Source: Bacteroidales bacterium (lineage in GTDB: Bacteria; Bacteroidota; Bacteroidia; Bacteroidales; UBA7960). From it: DNA of 36,321 nucleotides. The stretch is taken from contig SLIL01000460.1 of assembly GCA_007135645.1 (NCBI GenBank), positions 1 through 36,321 of the forward strand. The letters are read 5' to 3'. The notes under the pieces were generated by a model. It had not been told where the DNA came from. It made no database searches and was given only the letters and a program-made list of their open reading frames with translations. Below, in pieces: positions 163 to 13,691 of this stretch. The stretch's first letter is position 1, and each line of letters opens with the position of its first letter. A program made the translations under genes and the position numbers.

Positions 163-492
163 ACTTGTAAATGTTCTTTAAAGATTTGAGGCTAAAATAT
201 TTCGACATATAAAAATATTACATAGCGACTTGCCTGAAAATAGTTATTAGGCATGACTGGAAGTTAGACAATATGATAGATGAATCAACGTAGATGCGAT
301 GATGGTAGTTGAAGACCGGTTTAATGAAAAGCATGTCGGAGAATCAGACAAAATCTTCAAGTGTTGTCGGATACATTTTGAATAGCAGATGTCTTTTTCT
401 CTCTGAATGGGGAGGTATCAGAGTTTATCTATTGGACGGCAAGTTGCTTGTTTCTTTATTGTTTGTAGGTTATTCTGCCACAATAACCGGGC

Positions 493-522
493 AAAAAAAT
501 TGGATTTCTGAAAAGAAATCCA
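493..522 (-). terminator. Intrinsic terminator of the response-regulator gene, probably bidirectional
   Basis: An 8 bp perfect stem (TGGATTTC with GAAATCCA, 501-522) encloses a 6 nt loop. Read on the minus strand it is followed by A and then seven T (complement of 493-500). It lies about 75 nt past the minus-strand stop codon at 596, where a terminator for the NarL/LuxR regulator is expected. The plus-strand side is also T-rich after position 524, so it may work in both directions. Confidence 0.6.
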
Positions 523-560
523 TGTTTTTGGTTTTATTGTTTTACAGTGTTAGTGGTGTG

Positions 561-594
561 AGGGTTGTCTTTGTGAAAAGACAACCCTTTTTTT
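561..594 (+). terminator. Strong intrinsic terminator, plus strand
   Basis: A perfect 12 bp stem, AGGGTTGTCTTT (561-572) with AAAGACAACCCT (577-588), has a 4 nt GTGA loop and runs into seven T (588-594). The T run is only on the plus-strand side, so it should stop rightward transcription entering the response-regulator gene antisense. No rightward protein gene is visible upstream in the window, which is the main reason to suspect a small RNA. Confidence 0.65.
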
Positions 595-595
595 G

Positions 596-1246
596 TCAGA
601 GGGAAATCGCATTGTTTTTCAGAGCGAAGCTTACCAATGCGGCTGTATTTTTTAATCCTGATTTGGAAAGCATATTGTTTCGGTGGCCTCCCACCGTGCG
701 TGGACTAATCCCCAGTTTATCAGCAATATCAGCATTGGAATATCCCTGGCTAACCAGTTGCAATACTTCCAGTTCACGCCTTGTAAAACTATCGAGGATG
801 TTTTTTTCTTTACTTTCCTGTTTGGCGTTAAAAACTTTGCGGGTTACCATAACCAGAATCTCATCACTGAAGTAACCTTTCTCCTGCGAAATATTCTCAA
901 TGGCTTTTACGAGCTCATCCTTCCCAATGTTTTTTAGCAGGTAACCCAATGCTCCCGCCTGAAGCATTTCTTCCACATACTCATTTTCCCCAAACATACT
1001 AAGAGCAAGTATTTTAAGATCGGGATTCATTTCCAGGGCCTTTCTGGTAGTCTCAATACCATTCATTCCCGGCATTTTGATGTCCATAAAAACGATATCT
1101 GGAGACACCGAGGGCAACATTTCCAGAAACTTTTCACCAGACTCAGCCTCTCCGACTATTTCAATTTCCGGTATCTCAGCCAGCAGATCTTTTAACCCAT
1201 TTCTGAATATAAAGTGATCGTCAACAATTACTATTTTATGTGCCAT
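596..1246 (-). CDS. NarL/LuxR-family response regulator
   Basis: A DNA-binding response regulator of 216 aa. The N-terminal receiver (about 1-120) has the acidic pair D9-D10, phosphoacceptor D55 in the MDIKMPG motif and the conserved Lys in LLKN. The C-terminal LuxR-type helix-turn-helix (about 149-210) begins FTRRELEVL and has the recognition-helix motif SPRTVGGH. The frame is open 34 codons further upstream, but that extension has no family similarity, and the ATG at 1246 puts the receiver at its usual position. NarL-type regulators are normally partnered by HisKA_3 kinases, and one lies directly upstream (1470-4385), so they are very likely a cognate pair. The 223 nt gap holds a possible own promoter and a 12 bp palindrome. 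Target genes are unknown. Confidence 0.93.
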   Translation of the reverse strand: MAHKIVIVDDHFIFRNGLKDLLAEIPEIEIVGEAESGEKFLEMLPSVSPDIVFMDIKMPGMNGIETTRKALEMNPDLKILALSMFGENEYVEEMLQAGALGYLLKNIGKDELVKAIENISQEKGYFSDEILVMVTRKVFNAKQESKEKNILDSFTRRELEVLQLVSQGYSNADIADKLGISPRTVGGHRNNMLSKSGLKNTAALVSFALKNNAISL

Positions 1247-1469: not shown

Positions 1470-4385
1470 TCATTTTACAGGCACAAAAATTTTAATTAAA
1501 ACACCCTCGCCAGGATTGCTGGTAATGGATATGGTTCCATTAAGAGAATGTATGCGGTTATAGATATTGTTAATGCCCATCTGGGTCCCACTGGTTTCAG
1601 AAACCGGATTTTTTATATCAAACCCTTTCCCATTATCCCTATAAAATAACGAAAGGATGTTTTTCCTGATATCAATGGATATTTCAACCAGGGTGCATTC
1701 AGCATGTTTCAGTGCATTATTTATCAACTCATTTACAATTCTGAAAACCGCCACAGAAAGCTCACTCTCAACAACATCGAGTGGCACTTTTATTTTCAAA
1801 TCAATGGCGAAACTGCTGACGAGGTTGATTTTTGCAATATGGGAGTTAAGCGCTTTTTCCAGCCCAAAATCATTGAGTACATTGGGGGTAATATTGTTGG
1901 CAATGCTTCTGATCTGGTTTATGGCATCGTTCACAAGTTCGCGGCAATAATTAAGAACCTTCAGCTGATTATCATCCATATTTCGGTTCAGACTCTCCTG
2001 CTGAAGGTACATTTTAATTCCTGACAACAAAGGCCCGATTCCGTCATGAAGATCTTCAGCAAAACGTTTTCTCTCTTTCTCTTCAGTGTTGATTATCGTT
2101 TTCATAAAACTCTGCTCCAGTTTTCTTTGCTGGGTAACATCCCTTGCAACGCCAAATATTTCAATGGGTTTCATCCTTGGCGAATACTTAATTATTCCAC
2201 CAATCTGAAAAAAGATAATCTCCCCAGATTTCGACAGCATCCTGGTTTCAAATGTAAAAGAAGGTTTTCCCGAAGCAATAAGTTCCTTTATCTTTTCTTT
2301 GTTCAGATGCCTTTCTATGGGCAAAACGAACTTCCATATACTTTCACCTACAAATGAATCGTATCCCAGAGTTTTTGATGCTGCTGCATTTACCTGTAAC
2401 AGGACCCCATCTGCATCGGTTTTAAATACAATATCCAGTACATTGTCAAAAAGCTCTTTGAACCTTGTTTCACTATGCCTGAGTTTTTCTTCTGTTTCAA
2501 TTTTGGTAAGATATGTGCCAAGCATATCACAAACTGCACTGAGCAACACTCTTTCATTTTCCTCGATATAGTCAATTAATGGGTGGGAAGCAACCTTCTC
2601 ATCTCTGTATACCTCAATGACTCCAATATTGTCCATTCCAAAAGGAAAAGACATCAAAGTGCTTTTGGCAGGTATTCTGAATTTCTGGCACTTATACTCT
2701 TTATCACCATACCTAATGCAGGTAAATGTTGTCTTTGGATTCAAAAAACTTCGTGAAATCTCATCGGTAAGAACAGAAAATAACTGATCCGGCTTCATGT
2801 TCTGGTTTATATGCTGAGAAAGCCCATAAAGCAAACTTAATTCTTTTACCTTTTCATTGAGTCTTACCAGAAGTTCCTGATTTTCATTCTCCTTTTCAAC
2901 AATTGCGGTAATATCCCGACCCACAGACTGAACCTCAGAGATCTTACCAGCTTTATTAAAAATCGGACTATTGAGCCATTGATAGTACTTTCGCTCTTCA
3001 TTACTGCTCAGCAGTTCTGTTTCAAATACCCCGGTTTCCTTATATCTTATCCACTGATCTATCTTACTGATTATCTGCTCTCTGTCGCTGTGCTTAAAAA
3101 GTCGGGTCCAGTCTTTTCCCAAAAGATCCTTTTCAGTTTTATTAAAGAATTTCCGAAAACTGGTATTGACAAATGTGATGGCATGGTCAGGTTTCCAGCG
3201 AACTACCAGATCATTCTGATCCTGTACCATTGCTTTGTATCTTGACTCACTTTCCTGCAGCAGGTTTTGCGTATTTCTTATTTCATCAATATCAAAACAA
3301 CTGCCCATATATCCGTTGAAAATTCCTTTTAGATCAAACAAAGGTTGACAATAGTTCTTCACACAGCGGTAAGTACCACTTACATGAACAAGCCGATACT
3401 CTATTGAGAATGGCTTGTGCTCAATAAACCTTGAGTTTATTTCGGCTATAACACGATCTTTGTCATGGGGATGAATTCCTTCGTACCAGCCTGTTCCAGC
3501 CTCTTTTTGTGCGTCCCTTCCGGTAAACTCCACCCATTTTTTATTGAAATAGTCAAATTTTTTTAACGAGTTGCAACGCCATATGGGATTAGGAAAATAA
3601 TCCAGAACCTTCAGATAAAAATCAAGACTATCCTTTACCTGCTTTTCTGATTTCACCATGGAACTTATATCCCTGATCACTACCGTTACTCCATCAAACT
3701 TATTTTCAATAGTGTAGCGTGGCGATAGTTTTGCCTGATAATAGAATTCACCTCCAAAGGCTTTTATAGAATAGTTAATCTGCTGTGTTTTATTTTTAGA
3801 CTCACAGTCCTCAAGAGCGTCTAGAAAAAGTAGTGCCACATCGGAAGGAAAACCTGCTTCCGTTAAATTACTGCCTACAATAAATGAGGGGTTTATTCCA
3901 ACTGGAAATAGCCTTTCTTCTTCATCGCGATAAAGCTCTGAAAACCTACCTTTTTTATCCAGAACAAAAACAACATCATCCATGGATTGAAGCGTGGTTC
4001 GCATAACTTCAATCTGTCTGAAGAGATTCTTTTGATTGTTATCCGTATGATTTTTCAAGGGTAAAAGCAGGCCCATCACTCCGCTTTCTTGTTTATGGCG
4101 AATGTAGACAGAGAATAGCAACTCCTGTCCTGATACATTTTTCAAAGGAAGTAAAAAACTACTTTCTTTCCCCGTTTTTATAAGATATTCAAAATTCTCT
4201 TTTACCAGATCAGCCTTTGCTGGTTGAAGAAGATCAAAAATATTTTTTCCTAAAAAGTATTGGGGAGACTTTTGAAAATAACTAATAATATTTTCTGAGA
4301 TGTATTTGATTTCGCCCTGAACTGAACAGTTAATAAATAGAATAGAGTTACTGTCAAAGTTTGTTATGAACTCTTCATCTTTCAT
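1470..4385 (-). CDS. Multi-PAS sensor histidine kinase, HisKA_3 (NarX/DegS-like) class
   Basis: A predicted cytoplasmic sensor kinase of 971 aa; no signal peptide or membrane helix was seen. Domains in order: PAS about 8-110, PAS 128-240, PAS_3-type 255-368 (YFNKKWVEFTGRD, then IHPHDKDRV), PAS about 380-500, a GAF-like region about 515-640, PAS about 645-765, HisKA_3 dimerisation/phosphotransfer domain from about 768 with His780 in the AEDLHDGIG motif, then HATPase_c about 870-971 with NELINNALKH (N box), DNGKGF (G1) and a terminal GEGVLIKI motif. HisKA_3 kinases phosphorylate NarL/LuxR regulators, and the next gene is one. PAS domains 2 and 3 are clearly homologous to those in the kinase at 5036-7684. 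The signal is unknown; internal PAS domains suggest a redox, ligand or small-molecule cue. Confidence 0.92.
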   Translation of the reverse strand: MKDEEFITNFDSNSILFINCSVQGEIKYISENIISYFQKSPQYFLGKNIFDLLQPAKADLVKENFEYLIKTGKESSFLLPLKNVSGQELLFSVYIRHKQESGVMGLLLPLKNHTDNNQKNLFRQIEVMRTTLQSMDDVVFVLDKKGRFSELYRDEEERLFPVGINPSFIVGSNLTEAGFPSDVALLFLDALEDCESKNKTQQINYSIKAFGGEFYYQAKLSPRYTIENKFDGVTVVIRDISSMVKSEKQVKDSLDFYLKVLDYFPNPIWRCNSLKKFDYFNKKWVEFTGRDAQKEAGTGWYEGIHPHDKDRVIAEINSRFIEHKPFSIEYRLVHVSGTYRCVKNYCQPLFDLKGIFNGYMGSCFDIDEIRNTQNLLQESESRYKAMVQDQNDLVVRWKPDHAITFVNTSFRKFFNKTEKDLLGKDWTRLFKHSDREQIISKIDQWIRYKETGVFETELLSSNEERKYYQWLNSPIFNKAGKISEVQSVGRDITAIVEKENENQELLVRLNEKVKELSLLYGLSQHINQNMKPDQLFSVLTDEISRSFLNPKTTFTCIRYGDKEYKCQKFRIPAKSTLMSFPFGMDNIGVIEVYRDEKVASHPLIDYIEENERVLLSAVCDMLGTYLTKIETEEKLRHSETRFKELFDNVLDIVFKTDADGVLLQVNAAASKTLGYDSFVGESIWKFVLPIERHLNKEKIKELIASGKPSFTFETRMLSKSGEIIFFQIGGIIKYSPRMKPIEIFGVARDVTQQRKLEQSFMKTIINTEEKERKRFAEDLHDGIGPLLSGIKMYLQQESLNRNMDDNQLKVLNYCRELVNDAINQIRSIANNITPNVLNDFGLEKALNSHIAKINLVSSFAIDLKIKVPLDVVESELSVAVFRIVNELINNALKHAECTLVEISIDIRKNILSLFYRDNGKGFDIKNPVSETSGTQMGINNIYNRIHSLNGTISITSNPGEGVLIKIFVPVK

Positions 4386-4420
4386 CAGAAATAATTAATT
4401 TAAGTCATTGGATTGATGCT

Positions 4421-4472
4421 ACTTGCATGTAATAATTTTATTGCCTGCTTGAATTACTGTGCTCATGCAAGT
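4421..4472. repeat. 9 bp inverted repeat between receiver and kinase genes
   Basis: ACTTGCATG (4421-4429) and its exact complement CATGCAAGT (4464-4472) are separated by 34 nt, in the 182 nt gap upstream of the HisKA_3 kinase. They could form an mRNA stem or be paired operator half-sites. No TAnnTTTG box was found in this gap. Confidence 0.3.
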
Positions 4473-4568
4473 TTCATAAAACATCTTTTACTTTTTCTGA
4501 AAACGAAAGAACACACTACTTAAAATCAGAAAGGTTGGTCGGTAAATCCCACTGAAAAAGCTGCAGCA

Positions 4569-4964
4569 TTATACGTTAACAAGATTGATCACAGCTTCTT
4601 TCTGTAGTGGTTTATTGAGAAATTGTTTTACAAAGCGGTTGTCCATTGCTTTTTTATAATCTTCTGCATCTATAGAAGAAGAAAGCATAACAATCTTGGT
4701 TTGCTTGTGTATGACCTCTGGCAGGGAATCAAACATCTCAAGAAAACCAAATCCATCAATCTCAGGCATTCTGATATCCAGGAAAATAACATCAGGAATC
4801 TGTTCCTGTCCGTCAACAGTGAGTTCTTTCAGATAATTATACGCTAACTCGGCAGAATTTTTCACAACTATATGTGACGATAACCCGGCTTTTTCAACAA
4901 CCCTTTTATTAACCATGTTATCGATATCACTGTCATCTATTAATAGAACTTTCTCAAGTCTCAT
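4569..4964 (-). CDS. Stand-alone receiver (CheY-like) response regulator
   Basis: A single-domain receiver of 131 aa with no output domain. The acidic pair is D10-D11 (LLIDDSD), the phosphoacceptor is D63 in FLDIRMPEIDG, the Ser/Thr switch residue falls in VMLSSSID near 95, and the conserved Lys is K118 in LNKPL. Such proteins act by protein contact or as phosphate relays or sinks. It lies 71 nt downstream of the HisKA-class PAS kinase (5036-7684) on the same strand and 183 nt upstream of the HisKA_3 kinase. The simplest reading is that it is the partner of the first kinase, which has no receiver at its own C terminus. Confidence 0.9.
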   Translation of the reverse strand: MRLEKVLLIDDSDIDNMVNKRVVEKAGLSSHIVVKNSAELAYNYLKELTVDGQEQIPDVIFLDIRMPEIDGFGFLEMFDSLPEVIHKQTKIVMLSSSIDAEDYKKAMDNRFVKQFLNKPLQKEAVINLVNV

Positions 4965-5035
4965 AGTACATGGTTTTAAATCAATACTTTGAAGAAAAAT
5001 TAAGTAAGTTTGCGACTCACTAAAGGTTTTTAAAG

Positions 5036-7684
5036 TTACAAATTATTATCATTTGCCACAGAAAGGGATATCATTTTATAATTTCTGATAATAAGGTTTG
5101 GAATATCTACCATAAAAGTAGTTCCTTTGCCTGTTTCTGATTTTACATCGATGGACCCTCCGAGCTTTTCCACAATTTCTTTTACAATATACAACCCTAT
5201 ACCACTGCCTTTACTCTGCTCTGTTCCCCGGTAAAACATTTCGTAGATTTTGGGCAGGTGTTTTTCCTGGATTCCAACACCATTGTCAGTAATGGTTATA
5301 ACGGCATTGGCATGAGAGGTTTTTACCTTTATTTCTATGAAAGGATCTTTCTGCTCAAAATTATGAAACCTGAGGCTGTTTGAAATAAAATTATTGATGA
5401 TGATCTCAATTCTCTTTTTATCTGAAAGAAACGGTACACTTTCCACCACATCGGTAACAAACCGAACCTTCTCAAAATTATCGATAAACTTCAGGTTCTG
5501 AATAGTTTTGTCTATCATTCGGCTAAACTCAATCTTTTCATTCATGAGCCCCATACGCGAATTTCTTGAGTAATCGATGATGTCATGAATAATTTTATCC
5601 AAACGTGAGATAGACTCCCGAATCATGGAAAGATAGGTTATTCTTTCTTCATCATCCACATCCGCTTCCAGCAGATTTAACAAACCCAATACTGACATAA
5701 GCGGAGAGCGCAACTCGTGGGATGTTGAGTAAACAAACCTGTCCAGCTCTTCATTGGTTTTCTGAAGTTGTTTATTTTTTTCACGAAGGGTTTTCTCAAC
5801 TTCTTTGGTATTGGTGATATCGCTTAAAACGGCCACGAAATGCTCATTGTCATGCTGGCGGTTTTTTACAGGAGCCATGTCTACCAGTCTCCATTGTTTT
5901 TTATCCTCGGCTTCAAGCGTAAAAAACTCTCCTTTAAAATTATTCTTGGTTTGCAAAGACTTGAGCATGCCTTTCCATATCTCTCCTTCCACCGGGCACC
6001 CCAGAATGTTCAGGAAAGACTGTCCAATGATCTTGGTTTCATCGATCTGTGTGAGCCTTGCAAGCTCCTTGTTGGCATAAATAACAGGGTAGTCCTGGTT
6101 GTCATCTTTAATGATCATGATGCCCTCCAGAGCTGATTCCATGGCACTCTTTTGCAGATATAGTAACTCTTCTGCCTTTCTCTTCTGGCTAATATCATAA
6201 CAGGCACCAATAAACCCGGCAAACTGACCATCGAGGTTATAAAACGGGCGTCCGGCATTGATCACCCACCGGTATTCACCTGACTTGTATTTGAGGCGAT
6301 GCTCCAGTTGAAAGAACTGCTTGTTTTTGTAGGCATTGGATAATACAGAACTGAAGTTGCCTATATCAGAGGGATGGATCTTCTCTTTCCAGTCTTTTCT
6401 CATTTCTGAATCAAGATCATTGCCCGTAAAATCCAGCCAGGTTTTATTGAAATAATCGGGTCGTCTGGTCAGATTTGTTTTCCAGATCATTATGGGGAAA
6501 TCGGCCAAAAGGGTGAGATAAAAGTCTCTCGCCTTCTTGAGGTTTTCCTCGGTTTTCTTTTGCCGGGTTACATCGCTGCAAATTACCGTAACTCCGTCAA
6601 TTTCACCAAATGCATTTTTACGGGGCGATATTTTTGCTTCATACCACAATCTTGATCCAAAGGCTTCCAGGTAATATTCAATCCGTTCCTGGATATCTTC
6701 GTAAATAACGGTATCAATGGTCTGGATATATTTTCGGGCCACATCAAGAGGAAACCCAACATCGTAAATATTTTTCCCCACAAACACATCGGCCGATAGC
6801 GACAAATGGTTGTAACCCGAGGGCTGATAATACTCCAGGAAGTCTCCGTCCTTGTTAAGAGAAAACACAAGATCGTCAATTGACTCCAGCGTGCTCCGAA
6901 GCATTTCGGCTTGCTGGTAAAACAGCTCGTTTGATTTTTCTTTCTGTGTTACATCTTCAACATTGAGATAAACCATTTTCTCATCACCAATGACCACCGG
7001 ATCCATGATATACTCCAGTTCTATGCTTTTCCCTTTTACTTCTTCAGGAAGCTTCAGGTTCAGCACAATACGACCCTCTTCCAGGGATTTTTCCAGATAA
7101 GTAAGGATCACATCATAACTATCGGGGTGCATTCTTTTGAGGGTACTTCCCAGTAAATCATCAAGCTTGATATCGAATAAGCTGGCTGCAGCAGGGTTGG
7201 CATCTACAATTCTGGCCTCATCAGGTGTAACCAGCAGCTTGGATTGCGGGCTGTTTACAAAAAGCGACTTGTGCTTTTGCATGATCTTTAACTGCTCAAA
7301 CCTGCGTGTTGCAGCAACTGTTTTTTGCCTGATCTGCATCTGAAATACTTCTGGAGTGCAGGGGAAACATATAAATGAAACATTATCGGGAAGGTGATTT
7401 TCTTCCGTAATGTTTTCCATTACTACCTTATCCGCGATAAGAAGTATCTCGGAGAAATCACCCAGGAATGTGATCTTGGGATCCCCGGTAAATAATTTCA
7501 GGCATGAGTAATCCAGCAAGAGGCAAGAAGGAGATTCAATTATTTTCCTTCTGAACTCTTCTTCAACAAGTTGTGCAGGTTTTATAAAAGAAAACTGCTC
7601 TCCTGCATCTTTTGCGAGATTTTTTATCTCACCGGTAAGAGAAGGTTCCCCTAAGGTTACAAACACGAGAGGTTGTTTACGCAT
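5036..7684 (-). CDS. Multi-PAS sensor histidine kinase, HisKA class, with N-terminal pseudo-receiver
   Basis: A predicted cytoplasmic kinase of 882 aa. Residues 1-130 look like a receiver fold with Asp58 (CLLLDYS) but without the acidic pair and without the Lys-Pro motif (FPCTPE near 107-112), so it is probably not phosphorylated. PAS domains follow at about 145-250, 263-372, 385-500 and 505-630. The HisKA domain starts near 645 with His656 in STSHELRSPL. HATPase_c covers about 755-865 with NNFISNSLRF (N box), TDNGVGI (G1) and GSGIGLYIVK (G2). Residues 263-500 match residues 128-368 of the kinase at 1470-4385. There is no C-terminal receiver; the CheY-like protein directly downstream (4569-4964) is the likely partner. 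It lies 74 nt after the MBL-fold hydrolase gene and could be co-transcribed with it. Confidence 0.92.
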   Translation of the reverse strand: MRKQPLVFVTLGEPSLTGEIKNLAKDAGEQFSFIKPAQLVEEEFRRKIIESPSCLLLDYSCLKLFTGDPKITFLGDFSEILLIADKVVMENITEENHLPDNVSFICFPCTPEVFQMQIRQKTVAATRRFEQLKIMQKHKSLFVNSPQSKLLVTPDEARIVDANPAAASLFDIKLDDLLGSTLKRMHPDSYDVILTYLEKSLEEGRIVLNLKLPEEVKGKSIELEYIMDPVVIGDEKMVYLNVEDVTQKEKSNELFYQQAEMLRSTLESIDDLVFSLNKDGDFLEYYQPSGYNHLSLSADVFVGKNIYDVGFPLDVARKYIQTIDTVIYEDIQERIEYYLEAFGSRLWYEAKISPRKNAFGEIDGVTVICSDVTRQKKTEENLKKARDFYLTLLADFPIMIWKTNLTRRPDYFNKTWLDFTGNDLDSEMRKDWKEKIHPSDIGNFSSVLSNAYKNKQFFQLEHRLKYKSGEYRWVINAGRPFYNLDGQFAGFIGACYDISQKRKAEELLYLQKSAMESALEGIMIIKDDNQDYPVIYANKELARLTQIDETKIIGQSFLNILGCPVEGEIWKGMLKSLQTKNNFKGEFFTLEAEDKKQWRLVDMAPVKNRQHDNEHFVAVLSDITNTKEVEKTLREKNKQLQKTNEELDRFVYSTSHELRSPLMSVLGLLNLLEADVDDEERITYLSMIRESISRLDKIIHDIIDYSRNSRMGLMNEKIEFSRMIDKTIQNLKFIDNFEKVRFVTDVVESVPFLSDKKRIEIIINNFISNSLRFHNFEQKDPFIEIKVKTSHANAVITITDNGVGIQEKHLPKIYEMFYRGTEQSKGSGIGLYIVKEIVEKLGGSIDVKSETGKGTTFMVDIPNLIIRNYKMISLSVANDNNL

Positions 7685-7758
7685 AGCGATGTTTGTCAGT
7701 CAGCAAATTAATTATTTTTCCAATTCCACAATATAGTTCACACTTTTTTACCCTTATA

Positions 7759-8598
7759 TTATACTTGATTTAATGCAAAAGGGTTACCTCCTCTGATACC
7801 TTTTTCGGTTTTTTCCAGCAAAACGCACTCATTATAATAGTCATGCTCAAAAAATAATATGTACTGTTGCTCATAAGCCCGGTTAAGAAATTCTTCTTTT
7901 TCCTGCATCGATTTTACAGGGTCAATATCAAAACTGGGAACATATGCCAGGGGAATATTCATTACTGAAGCAATAAAATCAGCAGTAAATACCACTTTTT
8001 TTCCTTTCCAGGAGATGATGGGGATCATCTGCCCCAGTGTATGTCCATTTTTGATTTCCAGATCAACCCCTTTACAAAATGCGGTGTCTTCATAAATAAA
8101 CTCCAGCCTTCCTTCTTCAAAAAGAGACATGTAATTCTCAGGAAAATAAGATGCTTTCTCCCTTGGATTGGGATTATTGGCAGTATCCCACTGGGCCTTG
8201 CTGCAGTAGTAGGTTGCGTTGGGAAAAACTGCCTGTGGGCTTACACCGTCTTCAGCATATTTTACTGCACCACCCACATGATCAAAATGCAAGTGGGTTA
8301 AGATAACATCTGTAATATCATTGGGGGAATAACCAATCTTTTCAATGGCCTTTTCAAGCCCAATCCGGTCAAACAGGTAATAAAAGCTGTAATATTTTTC
8401 GCTTTGCTTGTTTCCCAGTCCTGTGTCAATAAGGATCCGCCTGTCGCCGGTATCTGCCAGAAGGCAACGGGAGGACAGGTTTACCATATTATTTTCATCG
8501 CAGGGAACATGTTTAGACCAGATAGCCTTAGGAACTACACCAAAACATGCTCCTCCATCCATTTTAAAGTTTTCAGGAACCACAGGAAATAATTGCAT
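7759..8598 (-). CDS. MBL-fold metallo-hydrolase, lactonase-like
   Basis: A metallo-beta-lactamase-fold hydrolase of 279 aa with a complete di-zinc site: HLHFDH at 102-107 (H102, H104, D106, H107), H186 in NGHTLGQ, D207 in FTADF and H252 in FFEHDYY. Overall length and motif layout resemble the AiiA-like and other broad-specificity lactonases of this superfamily, but substrate cannot be read from sequence. There is no signal peptide, so it is probably cytoplasmic. It is the first gene of a same-strand run leading into the PAS kinases, with 74 nt before the next start, which suggests but does not prove a link to signalling. A TACTTTTG box lies about 78 nt upstream. Confidence 0.88.
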   Translation of the reverse strand: MQLFPVVPENFKMDGGACFGVVPKAIWSKHVPCDENNMVNLSSRCLLADTGDRRILIDTGLGNKQSEKYYSFYYLFDRIGLEKAIEKIGYSPNDITDVILTHLHFDHVGGAVKYAEDGVSPQAVFPNATYYCSKAQWDTANNPNPREKASYFPENYMSLFEEGRLEFIYEDTAFCKGVDLEIKNGHTLGQMIPIISWKGKKVVFTADFIASVMNIPLAYVPSFDIDPVKSMQEKEEFLNRAYEQQYILFFEHDYYNECVLLEKTEKGIRGGNPFALNQV

Positions 8599-12670: not shown

Positions 12671-13579
12671 TTACTTTTTCTCAATAAGATTTGCCAGGTG
12701 AGAAATTCTATCCTGCAGGCTTCGCATCTCGTCCATCTTATCGCTCAATGATCTGCTCACGGTTGACAACTGCTCGCGCAGCTCCACCAGTTGCAGTTCG
12801 AGCATAGCTTTGCCGTCTTTTTTGTATTCAGCAAAAGATTTCTGCCCGATATTGGTTTTGATAAAACTCATGAAATCAAGCAGATACTTTTCCATTTCTG
12901 CATCAATATCACCTGCAGCAGAAAAGTCCTGCTTAATAAATTTGACATCAAAGTTCACATCGTGATCCCTGGCCGAAGAAACAAGGTCATTAAAGCACTC
13001 AATATATTCAGTAAAGGGTGTGATAAGGTCCCTGGGCATGTTATAAACCTGCATAATAACTTTGGCAGATTCTTTTTTCCTGATCTCACCAAAAAGGAAA
13101 TGCATGGTGGCATAAAGCCCTCTCTTTATAACCTTTTCCGGGGGGAATTCGCTGGGGTTATTTTCAAGGTACAGTTTTTTAAGCCCGGTAAGGTTTACAA
13201 AATTCAGGGGAAGCTTTTTCAGCTGATTATAACTAAGATCAAGATGCACCAGGTTATTCATTTCCCCGACAGATTCGGGCAGGGAACCGATCTTGTTGTT
13301 GCTCAGATCAAGGTTGCTGATATGGATCAGATTGCCAAAGCCTGCCGGAAGGTCCTGCAGTTGATTGTGATTAAGATAAAGCGATCTTAAATTGGTCAGA
13401 TGACAAAACTCTGCCGGGAGACTGCTTATGCTGTTGTAAGAAAGATCGAGTTTCTGAACAAGATTTAACTTACCTATTTCGGGAGGTAATTCTGTAATAC
13501 CCCGGTTTGATAAGCTTAATTTTTTTAATTTTTGCTCTTTAGCCACTGCAATGGCTTCCAATACTTCGTCTCTATCCAT
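12671..13579 (-). CDS. Leucine-rich-repeat protein with Roco-like cap and C-terminal coiled coil
   Basis: A cytoplasmic protein of 302 aa without signal peptide. Residues about 16-150 are five to six LRRs of about 23 aa (LxxLxLSxNxIxxLPxx), of the SHOC2-like class. They end with NPSEFPPEKVIKRG, which resembles the LRR-to-ROC linker of bacterial Roco proteins, but no P-loop or GTPase motif follows. Instead there is an unrecognised alpha/beta region (about 168-245) and a coiled coil (about 255-302, heptads ending LANLIEKK). The start was set at the ATG at 13579 because a TACTTTTG promoter box at 13597-13604 lies inside the longer open frame. Function is unknown; LRRs suggest protein binding. 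Confidence 0.8.
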   Translation of the reverse strand: MDRDEVLEAIAVAKEQKLKKLSLSNRGITELPPEIGKLNLVQKLDLSYNSISSLPAEFCHLTNLRSLYLNHNQLQDLPAGFGNLIHISNLDLSNNKIGSLPESVGEMNNLVHLDLSYNQLKKLPLNFVNLTGLKKLYLENNPSEFPPEKVIKRGLYATMHFLFGEIRKKESAKVIMQVYNMPRDLITPFTEYIECFNDLVSSARDHDVNFDVKFIKQDFSAAGDIDAEMEKYLLDFMSFIKTNIGQKSFAEYKKDGKAMLELQLVELREQLSTVSRSLSDKMDEMRSLQDRISHLANLIEKK

Positions 13580-13596
13580 GTTGTAAATTGTTTTTT

Positions 13597-13604
13597 CAAA
13601 AGTA
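13597..13604 (-). promoter_or_regulatory. Candidate -7 box for the LRR gene at 12671-13579
   Basis: The minus strand reads TACTTTTG, 18 nt before the ATG at 13579. Transcription would begin near 13590, which excludes the longer possible start at 13633 and supports the shorter protein. The -33 box is not evident. Confidence 0.42.
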
Positions 13605-13691
13605 TAAAATGTTTTATTGCGGTAATTACGCATTTTTCATGAAAAGTGCACGTTAAAAATACAGGTACCACGGCTTTGTGTTGATATTGAT

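Follow-up and report, generated by a model that had tools for sequence, protein, structure and literature searches.

A tandem PAS pair shared by two neighbouring histidine kinases of different classes in a Bacteroidales gene cluster

We have analysed a 36,321-nucleotide stretch of DNA from a Bacteroidales bacterium (contig SLIL01000460.1 of assembly GCA_007135645.1), hereafter called the window, which is the complete contig C109 of a genome of 4.09 Mb (477 contigs, 92.1% complete) and which encodes two neighbouring histidine kinases, HK1 and HK2, with a pair of PAS domains in common. The genes lie on the minus strand in the order metallo-beta-lactamase-fold hydrolase, HK2, CheY-like regulator, HK1 and NarL-type regulator. 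HK2 (5036..7684, 882 aa) is built as receiver-like domain-PAS1-PAS2-PAS3-PAS4-HisKA-HATPase_c, and HK1 (1470..4385, 971 aa) as PAS1-PAS2-PAS3-PAS4-linker domain-PAS5-HisKA_3-HATPase_c, the linker domain having no Pfam match. Sequence comparison confirms that the two proteins share the PAS2-PAS3 pair with sharp borders (3270..4022, residues 122-372 of HK1; 6173..6919, residues 256-504 of HK2), the remaining domains being without strong mutual match.

Both kinases were found at the coordinates given in an earlier note made from the letters of this DNA, and Pfam confirmed the classes named there. In the catalytic core of HK1 (1473..2099), HisKA_3 (PF07730, 34.0 bits against a cut-off of 24) is followed by HATPase_c (PF02518, 42.9 bits), and the core of HK2 (5039..5794) has HisKA (PF00512, 50.3 bits) and HATPase_c (PF02518, 89.1 bits). 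The NarL-type response regulator (596..1246), whose start codon was set at the ATG aligning with the starts in relatives, consists of a receiver and a GerE/LuxR DNA-binding domain (GerE, 63.0 bits). The CheY-like single-domain response regulator (4569..4964, 131 aa) matched PF00072 at 54.6 bits and consists of a receiver only, with no output domain; it has the acidic pair, Asp, Ser and Lys, and the acidic pair, Asp, Ser/Thr and Lys are intact in all ten copies of this protein. Its nearest solved chains are 4xlt_A and 3ilh_A, neither of which is named as a chemotaxis protein. A D-x-x-x-Q phosphatase motif beside the phosphorylated His of HisKA_3 kinases is described in a section of PMC8199190. 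The eight locus copies of HK1 read HDG(I/L)GP at this site, with Pro replacing Gln, and HK1 may therefore be a poor phosphatase by the D-x-x-x-Q route; the same replacement is present also in many related HisKA_3 kinases. The degenerate receiver-like domain of HK2 (7295..7684) has no Pfam match, and its predicted fold resembles receiver domains (AlphaFold2 pLDDT 83.8; top fold match the regulator StyR, E 1.4e-5); the Asp of the window copy is replaced by Gly in the one g5 and the one g6 sequence aligned (g1, g3, g4, g5, g6 and g7 denote genera).

When the whole proteins were compared by BLASTP, HK1 matched HK2 with 199 bits (E 4e-57, 28% identity over 497 columns), and the strongest stretch was the pair itself, with 37% identity. 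Its borders are close to the residues 128-368 and 263-500 for which the earlier note had claimed a homologous PAS-PAS pair, and the motifs cited there (DFYL, DYFNK, W.(E/D)FTG and IHP) occur in both kinases in the order claimed. All four fall in PAS3, a type found also without PAS2 in other proteins across the phylum, and by themselves they therefore say little about the pair. For a domain-by-domain comparison, domains with borders set by eye were aligned over relatives and compared all-versus-all with hhalign, the best five matches being taken for each query. PAS2 of HK1 matched PAS2 of HK2 with scores of 235-242 and PAS3 matched PAS3 with 261-267; all other comparisons between PAS domains of HK1 and HK2 among these best five gave 60 or less. 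A short kinase of genus g6 has a single PAS, to which HK2 PAS1 (6935..7294) is homologous (136-158); the N-terminus of that kinase, in one g6 sequence, weakly resembles the degenerate receiver of HK2 (35-40). In the segment of HK1 composed of PAS4, linker domain and PAS5 (2100..3269, residues 373-762), the linker domain (105-110) and PAS5 (142-153) matched the kinases at G026:C17 and G023:C285, which belong to other genera. HK1 PAS1 and HK2 PAS4 had no strong match in this comparison and no clear source. In the pair alignment, 36 of the 251 columns are invariant over 15 rows, GFP, FG and FT positions among them being common to both kinases, and both halves stay in register across HK1 and HK2 copies. 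Every HK1 copy contains the pair, although in G011 a contig end cuts it. The HK1 modules between the pair and PAS5 come and go among relatives: PAS4 and the linker domain are absent from the short HK1 of G002, G008, G009 and G010 (L031, L032, L033 and L034). PAS1 is missing from the HK1 of G005.

We then examined how far the pair stands apart from other PAS domains. Within its own genome, the HK1 pair as query gave 562 bits for HK1, 183 for HK2 and 73, with partial query coverage, for the next place. A profile of both pairs, which favours HK1 and HK2 because it was built from both, gave 26 matches at E 1e-5, led by the two kinases (411 and 382 bits) and followed by partial matches of 146 and 103 bits, the best nearly full one having 90. 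In 345 genomes of the phylum, own genome included, the PAS-pair profile matched 19. PAS2 is the rarer type, with matches in 10 of these genomes at 1e-13, and the best outside match to its profile had 93 bits as against 172-190 for the window copies. The best outside matches to the pair profile (f41 proteins, 178-204 bits) were considered as relatives of the pair and rejected, because only their second PAS matches; their first PAS gave at most 13 bits or nothing with the PAS2 profile. Among the fetched loci, PAS2 directly followed by PAS3, both above 100 bits, was present only in HK1 and HK2 copies, and the best other locus with both types, L142, reached 54 and 39 bits. Likewise, when the HK1 pair of G015 was the query against these loci, full-length HK2 copies scored 234-262 bits and the best outside protein among the matches listed scored 164.

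A tree of the tandem was based on all hits in the fetched loci that span positions 25-235 of the model, with near-identical sequences and incomplete rows removed, including the truncated HK1 of G011 and HK2 of G003. Of its 41 rows, 22 are outside sequences, ten of them long branches. HK1 (8 rows) and HK2 (11 rows) form one clade with support 100/98, within which HK2 is supported at 100/99 and HK1 at 93/71; the tree check proposed in the earlier note thus favours common ancestry in the tandem, though single-domain trees alone do not show it. As the 19 pairs form one clade, a single duplication most likely copied both PAS domains together, before genera g1 and g5 separated. The data do not support gene conversion between the two kinases, which we also considered: over six genomes the within-genome identity (38.8% for PAS2, 37.1% for PAS3) equals that across genomes (38.7% and 37.4%).

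HK1 was searched for in 59 genomes; these are draft assemblies, so that absence from the rest of a genome is not proven by absence at the locus. It was found in nine (G000, G002, G005, G008, G009, G010, G011, G015 and G021), and in all nine HK2 and the CheY-like gene stand directly before HK1 or the HK1 start, which bears out the conserved adjacency that the earlier note had regarded as support. The gene is cut by a contig end in G010, G011 and G021. The apparent remainder of the G011 copy lies, with NarL, on another contig; in G021 another contig has a full HK1 and NarL, the start of which matches the cut copy with 95% identity over 700 bases; G010 yielded no locus-type NarL. The contig of G003 ends within HK2, and two genomes of the same genus, G006 and G007, gave no match to the hydrolase or to the HK2 core at the thresholds used. 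A scan of named genomes with the HK2 alignment gave 15 relatives in 22 stretches, the last of which is a general HisKA match in Enterococcus; the same scan with HK1 alone gave 15 pattern matches, none of them a relative.

Comparison of genera at this chromosomal site suggests that the locus grew in steps, with a cysH-SDR arrangement first, a short kinase and CheY-like regulator then placed between these two genes, and the PAS pair, HK1 and NarL added later. In L067 (g3), L073 (g4) and L071 (g7), the hydrolase, cysH and the SDR gene occur with no kinases between; the reading frames of cysH and the SDR gene are about 34 and 16 bases apart in the first two and overlap by 36 bases in L071. In the g6 genomes G016, G022 and G030, a short kinase with one PAS (397-489 residues) and a CheY-like gene are found between cysH and the next gene, and the HK2 core is about 55% identical to the core of this kinase; a fourth g6 genome, G027, has the hydrolase and cysH but no HK2 core. 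The HK2 of g5 and g1 carries the cassette and PAS4, with HK1 and NarL after CheY, apart from G001, G004 and the cases given above. The HK1 core is 44-47% identical to kinases of G026 and G023 that precede a NarL regulator at another locus, and these regulators are 53-55% identical to the NarL of the window. In the NarL tree, the nine locus copies are grouped at 94/87, and their sister is the G026/G023 regulators (97/96).

Relatives of the locus have cysH (PAPS/APS reductase) between the hydrolase and HK2, e.g., at L031:8223-8948. In the window the gap between these two genes is 74 bases (7685-7758) and contains no cysH, and no cysH match was obtained in the window genome, which is 92.1% complete, at E 1e-40; 38 of the 59 genomes have the gene. 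A cysH-linked sulfur signal, which was considered as a candidate input, is thus disfavoured, because a genome with no cysH match has kept both kinases.

The earlier note had expected the HisKA_3 kinase to feed the NarL-type regulator and the HisKA kinase to feed the CheY-like protein. The g6 genomes have an HK2-type core with CheY but neither HK1 nor NarL beside it, and of the 48 listed HisKA_3-core places outside the locus 18 were examined, 12 of which had a NarL-type match with 170 or more aligned positions next to the kinase. Each core is thus found with the type of regulator assigned to it at sites where the other kinase-regulator pair is missing or lies elsewhere, and gene history therefore supports the wiring of HK1 to NarL and of HK2 to CheY, and on this ground we infer the partner choice and the direction of phosphate flow. 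Calling the second branch non-transcriptional, as the note did, fits a CheY-like protein without an output domain; such a protein could still pass the phosphate on.

On the basis of the tandem ancestry, the sharp borders, the adjacency, the separate relatives of each kinase-regulator pair and the loci devoid of HK1, all of which the alignments and trees demonstrate, we lean towards the following explanation. A tandem PAS2-PAS3 sensor cassette would have been duplicated between neighbouring kinases of different class before the g1/g5 split, HK2, of the HisKA class, being the older and having a CheY-like regulator of its own, and HK1, of the HisKA_3 class, belonging with a NarL-type regulator of its own. 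HK2 would signal to the output-less CheY-like protein and HK1 would drive transcription through NarL; because the input module is common and the phosphotransfer partners are separate, related cues would be read out twice in parallel.

Several observations weigh against this explanation or parts of it. The PAS2 tree (44 rows) joins HK1 and HK2 at 66/28 only, and the unconstrained PAS3 tree (49 rows) puts HK1 among outside rows; a tree constrained to group HK1 with HK2 is 1.24 log units better for PAS3, and the test does not reject this grouping (p 0.56). HK1 PAS3 is closer to some outside PAS3 domains (up to 51% identity) than to HK2 PAS3. The site patterns differ accordingly between the domains: for PAS2, four columns are common to HK1 and HK2 only, in two HK1 agrees with the outside rows and HK2 is different, and none shows the reverse, and the corresponding numbers for PAS3 are two, eight and two. 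Taken by itself, PAS3 does not show copying as a unit. The HisKA_3-core tree leaves the g1 and g5 HK1 cores ungrouped, the grouping again not being rejected (p 0.525), and the case for a single HK1 origin at the locus thus comes from synteny and from the NarL and PAS trees. Identity between G000 and G005 is 58% for the HK1 pair versus 74% for the HK2 pair, and the difference recurs between G000 and G002 (47% versus 73%) and between G000 and G015 (45% versus 61%). Six of the 18 examined HisKA_3 places had no such NarL match, at least one of them being at a contig end. Finally, G001 keeps HK2, CheY and NarL, the last about 60 bases after CheY, with no HK1 between (L039:7400-7600), and G004 keeps HK2 and CheY with the RNA gene described below directly after CheY and neither HK1 nor NarL (L038:1-530). 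The two branches are thus not bound to each other, and we infer that HK1 was lost in these two genomes rather than never present.

The alternative that survives best is that the cassettes, though of common ancestry, have diverged to the point that HK1 and HK2 now read different cues and their proximity is a relic of the duplication; we hold this to be possible, with less conviction than the parallel readout of related cues. It agrees with the 37% identity of the window pairs, the small number of invariant columns in the pair alignment and the faster change of the HK1 pair, because of which binding by the pair may have drifted, whereas the maintenance of both halves in register and the invariant GFP, FG and FT positions common to both kinases weigh against it. 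In all three of the above genome comparisons, NarL is the most conserved part. The predicted structure of the pair (pLDDT 85.4, pTM 0.59) matched tandem PAS structures of several kinds (DosP, FixL, MmoS and NifL), with oxygen, redox and light sensors among others, and the fold search thus names no ligand. The earlier note had also suggested that one signal is split into two branches: the common ancestry of the pairs and their adjacency uphold the basis of this proposal, and the low identity, the faster HK1 pair and the two relatives without HK1 at the locus make the split itself less certain. One single split signal is a possibility, and that both cassettes still bind the same ligand is the least certain part of the scheme.

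Tandem PAS domains often form dimers, and the fold matches of the pair include dimeric PAS structures of FixL. The pair could thus be mainly a dimerisation or docking module, through which HK1 and HK2 in mixed dimers adjust each other's activity instead of each sensing one ligand on its own, and since the two genes are in one same-strand run their proteins may be made together. We consider this unlikely, as the locus has HK2 but no HK1 in G001 and G004.

At the window end before NarL, an alignment with 68-73% identity over about 500 bases in six relatives points to a candidate conserved, structured RNA gene at about 168..594 on the plus strand, convergent with NarL, the ends having been estimated from a promoter-like block and a terminator. 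In the predicted structure 97.2% of cells are paired, and 12 of 71 pairs have changed on both sides, in comparison with 4.1 in shuffles and 2-5 when the structure was slid; further pair types were not above the shuffles (26 versus 24.4), and all these statistics are favoured by derivation of the structure from the same alignment. The RNA measures about 430 nt in g1; the g5 and g6 versions are shorter, with two core motifs in common and a closing helix of other letters. The expected closing helix was picked in 9 of 12 sequences; other helices, likely due to chance, were picked in G001, G021 and G030. One RNA sequence from each of g1, g5 and g6 gave no Rfam match near the gathering score. A model of the core matched 15 of the 59 genomes, all in these three genera, under filters that lose some weak matches. 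Fourteen of the 15 also have HK2 or the short g6 form, and 14 of the 15 genomes with either kinase have the RNA, the exceptions being G006 (RNA without HK2) and G003 (HK2 without an RNA match); this overlap follows kinship and is thus no proof of joint function. A layered unit around the RNA would be compatible with these data, because other genera have sites without all three elements and the RNA occurs in all but one of the genomes with HK2 or the short form and in one without. In such a unit, an HK2-type kinase, the CheY-like protein and the RNA would have arrived together between cysH and the SDR gene. The output-less CheY-like protein would then work through a structured RNA, and HK1-NarL would be a later-added transcriptional arm with a copy of the sensor. 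We judge this even less likely than the dimer hypothesis. Least probable of all is independent recruitment of merely similar pairs from the large PAS pool, because, though PAS3 occurs in many other proteins of the phylum and the single-domain trees are weak, the tandem clade, the drop from HK2 to the next place in the own genome and the preference of the G015 pair for full-length HK2 copies all speak against it.

As for the other genes, the hydrolase (7759..8598, minus strand), which is the first gene of the same-strand run and served as the synteny anchor, has the lactonase YtnP as its top model, at 182.8 bits as against a cut-off of 425. A leucine-rich-repeat-like protein at 12671-13633 matched NCBIfam effector and internalin models far under their cut-offs, and probably the repeats alone account for these matches.

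The locus illustrates how a second output may be acquired by a bacterial pathway, since one sensor cassette is present in two kinases of different phosphotransfer class and the steps can still be followed at a single chromosomal site in present-day relatives. It also offers a test of signal branching by common input and separate partners, with natural absences of one branch for comparison. NarL and NarP of Escherichia coli both bind DNA, and in this respect the locus differs from the Nar system, because its CheY-like protein has no output domain. The likeness is that NarX/NarQ and NarL/NarP are described in part of PMC8199190 as two kinases with homologous sensors and two response regulators, as here. 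Both NarX and NarQ are HisKA_3 kinases, whereas one kinase of the present locus is of the HisKA class with an output-less partner, and the sensor common to HK1 and HK2 is a PAS pair, unlike that of NarX/NarQ. The HK2 core and the CheY-like protein form a two-gene unit like the PAS-HisKA kinase and single-domain regulator of g6; HK2 differs in having a sensor of four PAS domains instead of one, the shared cassette and another PAS having been added. HK1 resembles the HisKA_3-NarL pairs of G023 and G026 in that the kinase is directly before the regulator; these pairs are at another locus and gave no PAS2-PAS3 cassette match at the thresholds used, G023 having weak PAS3 similarity only. Our literature search found no report of a common sensor in adjacent kinases of two classes, which is no proof that none exists. 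Input-domain shuffling is presented in sections of PMC4603909 as a general route to new kinase sensors that is quick after duplication; the same sections state that it is rare, and that domain loss followed by gain is likelier than direct shuffling from protein to protein. The present case differs in that the same cassette is carried by adjacent kinases without matches between their remaining domains, and in that the stages can be read at one syntenic site. The locus is a new arrangement of known parts, that is, a new example of known domain shuffling and not a new kind of system.

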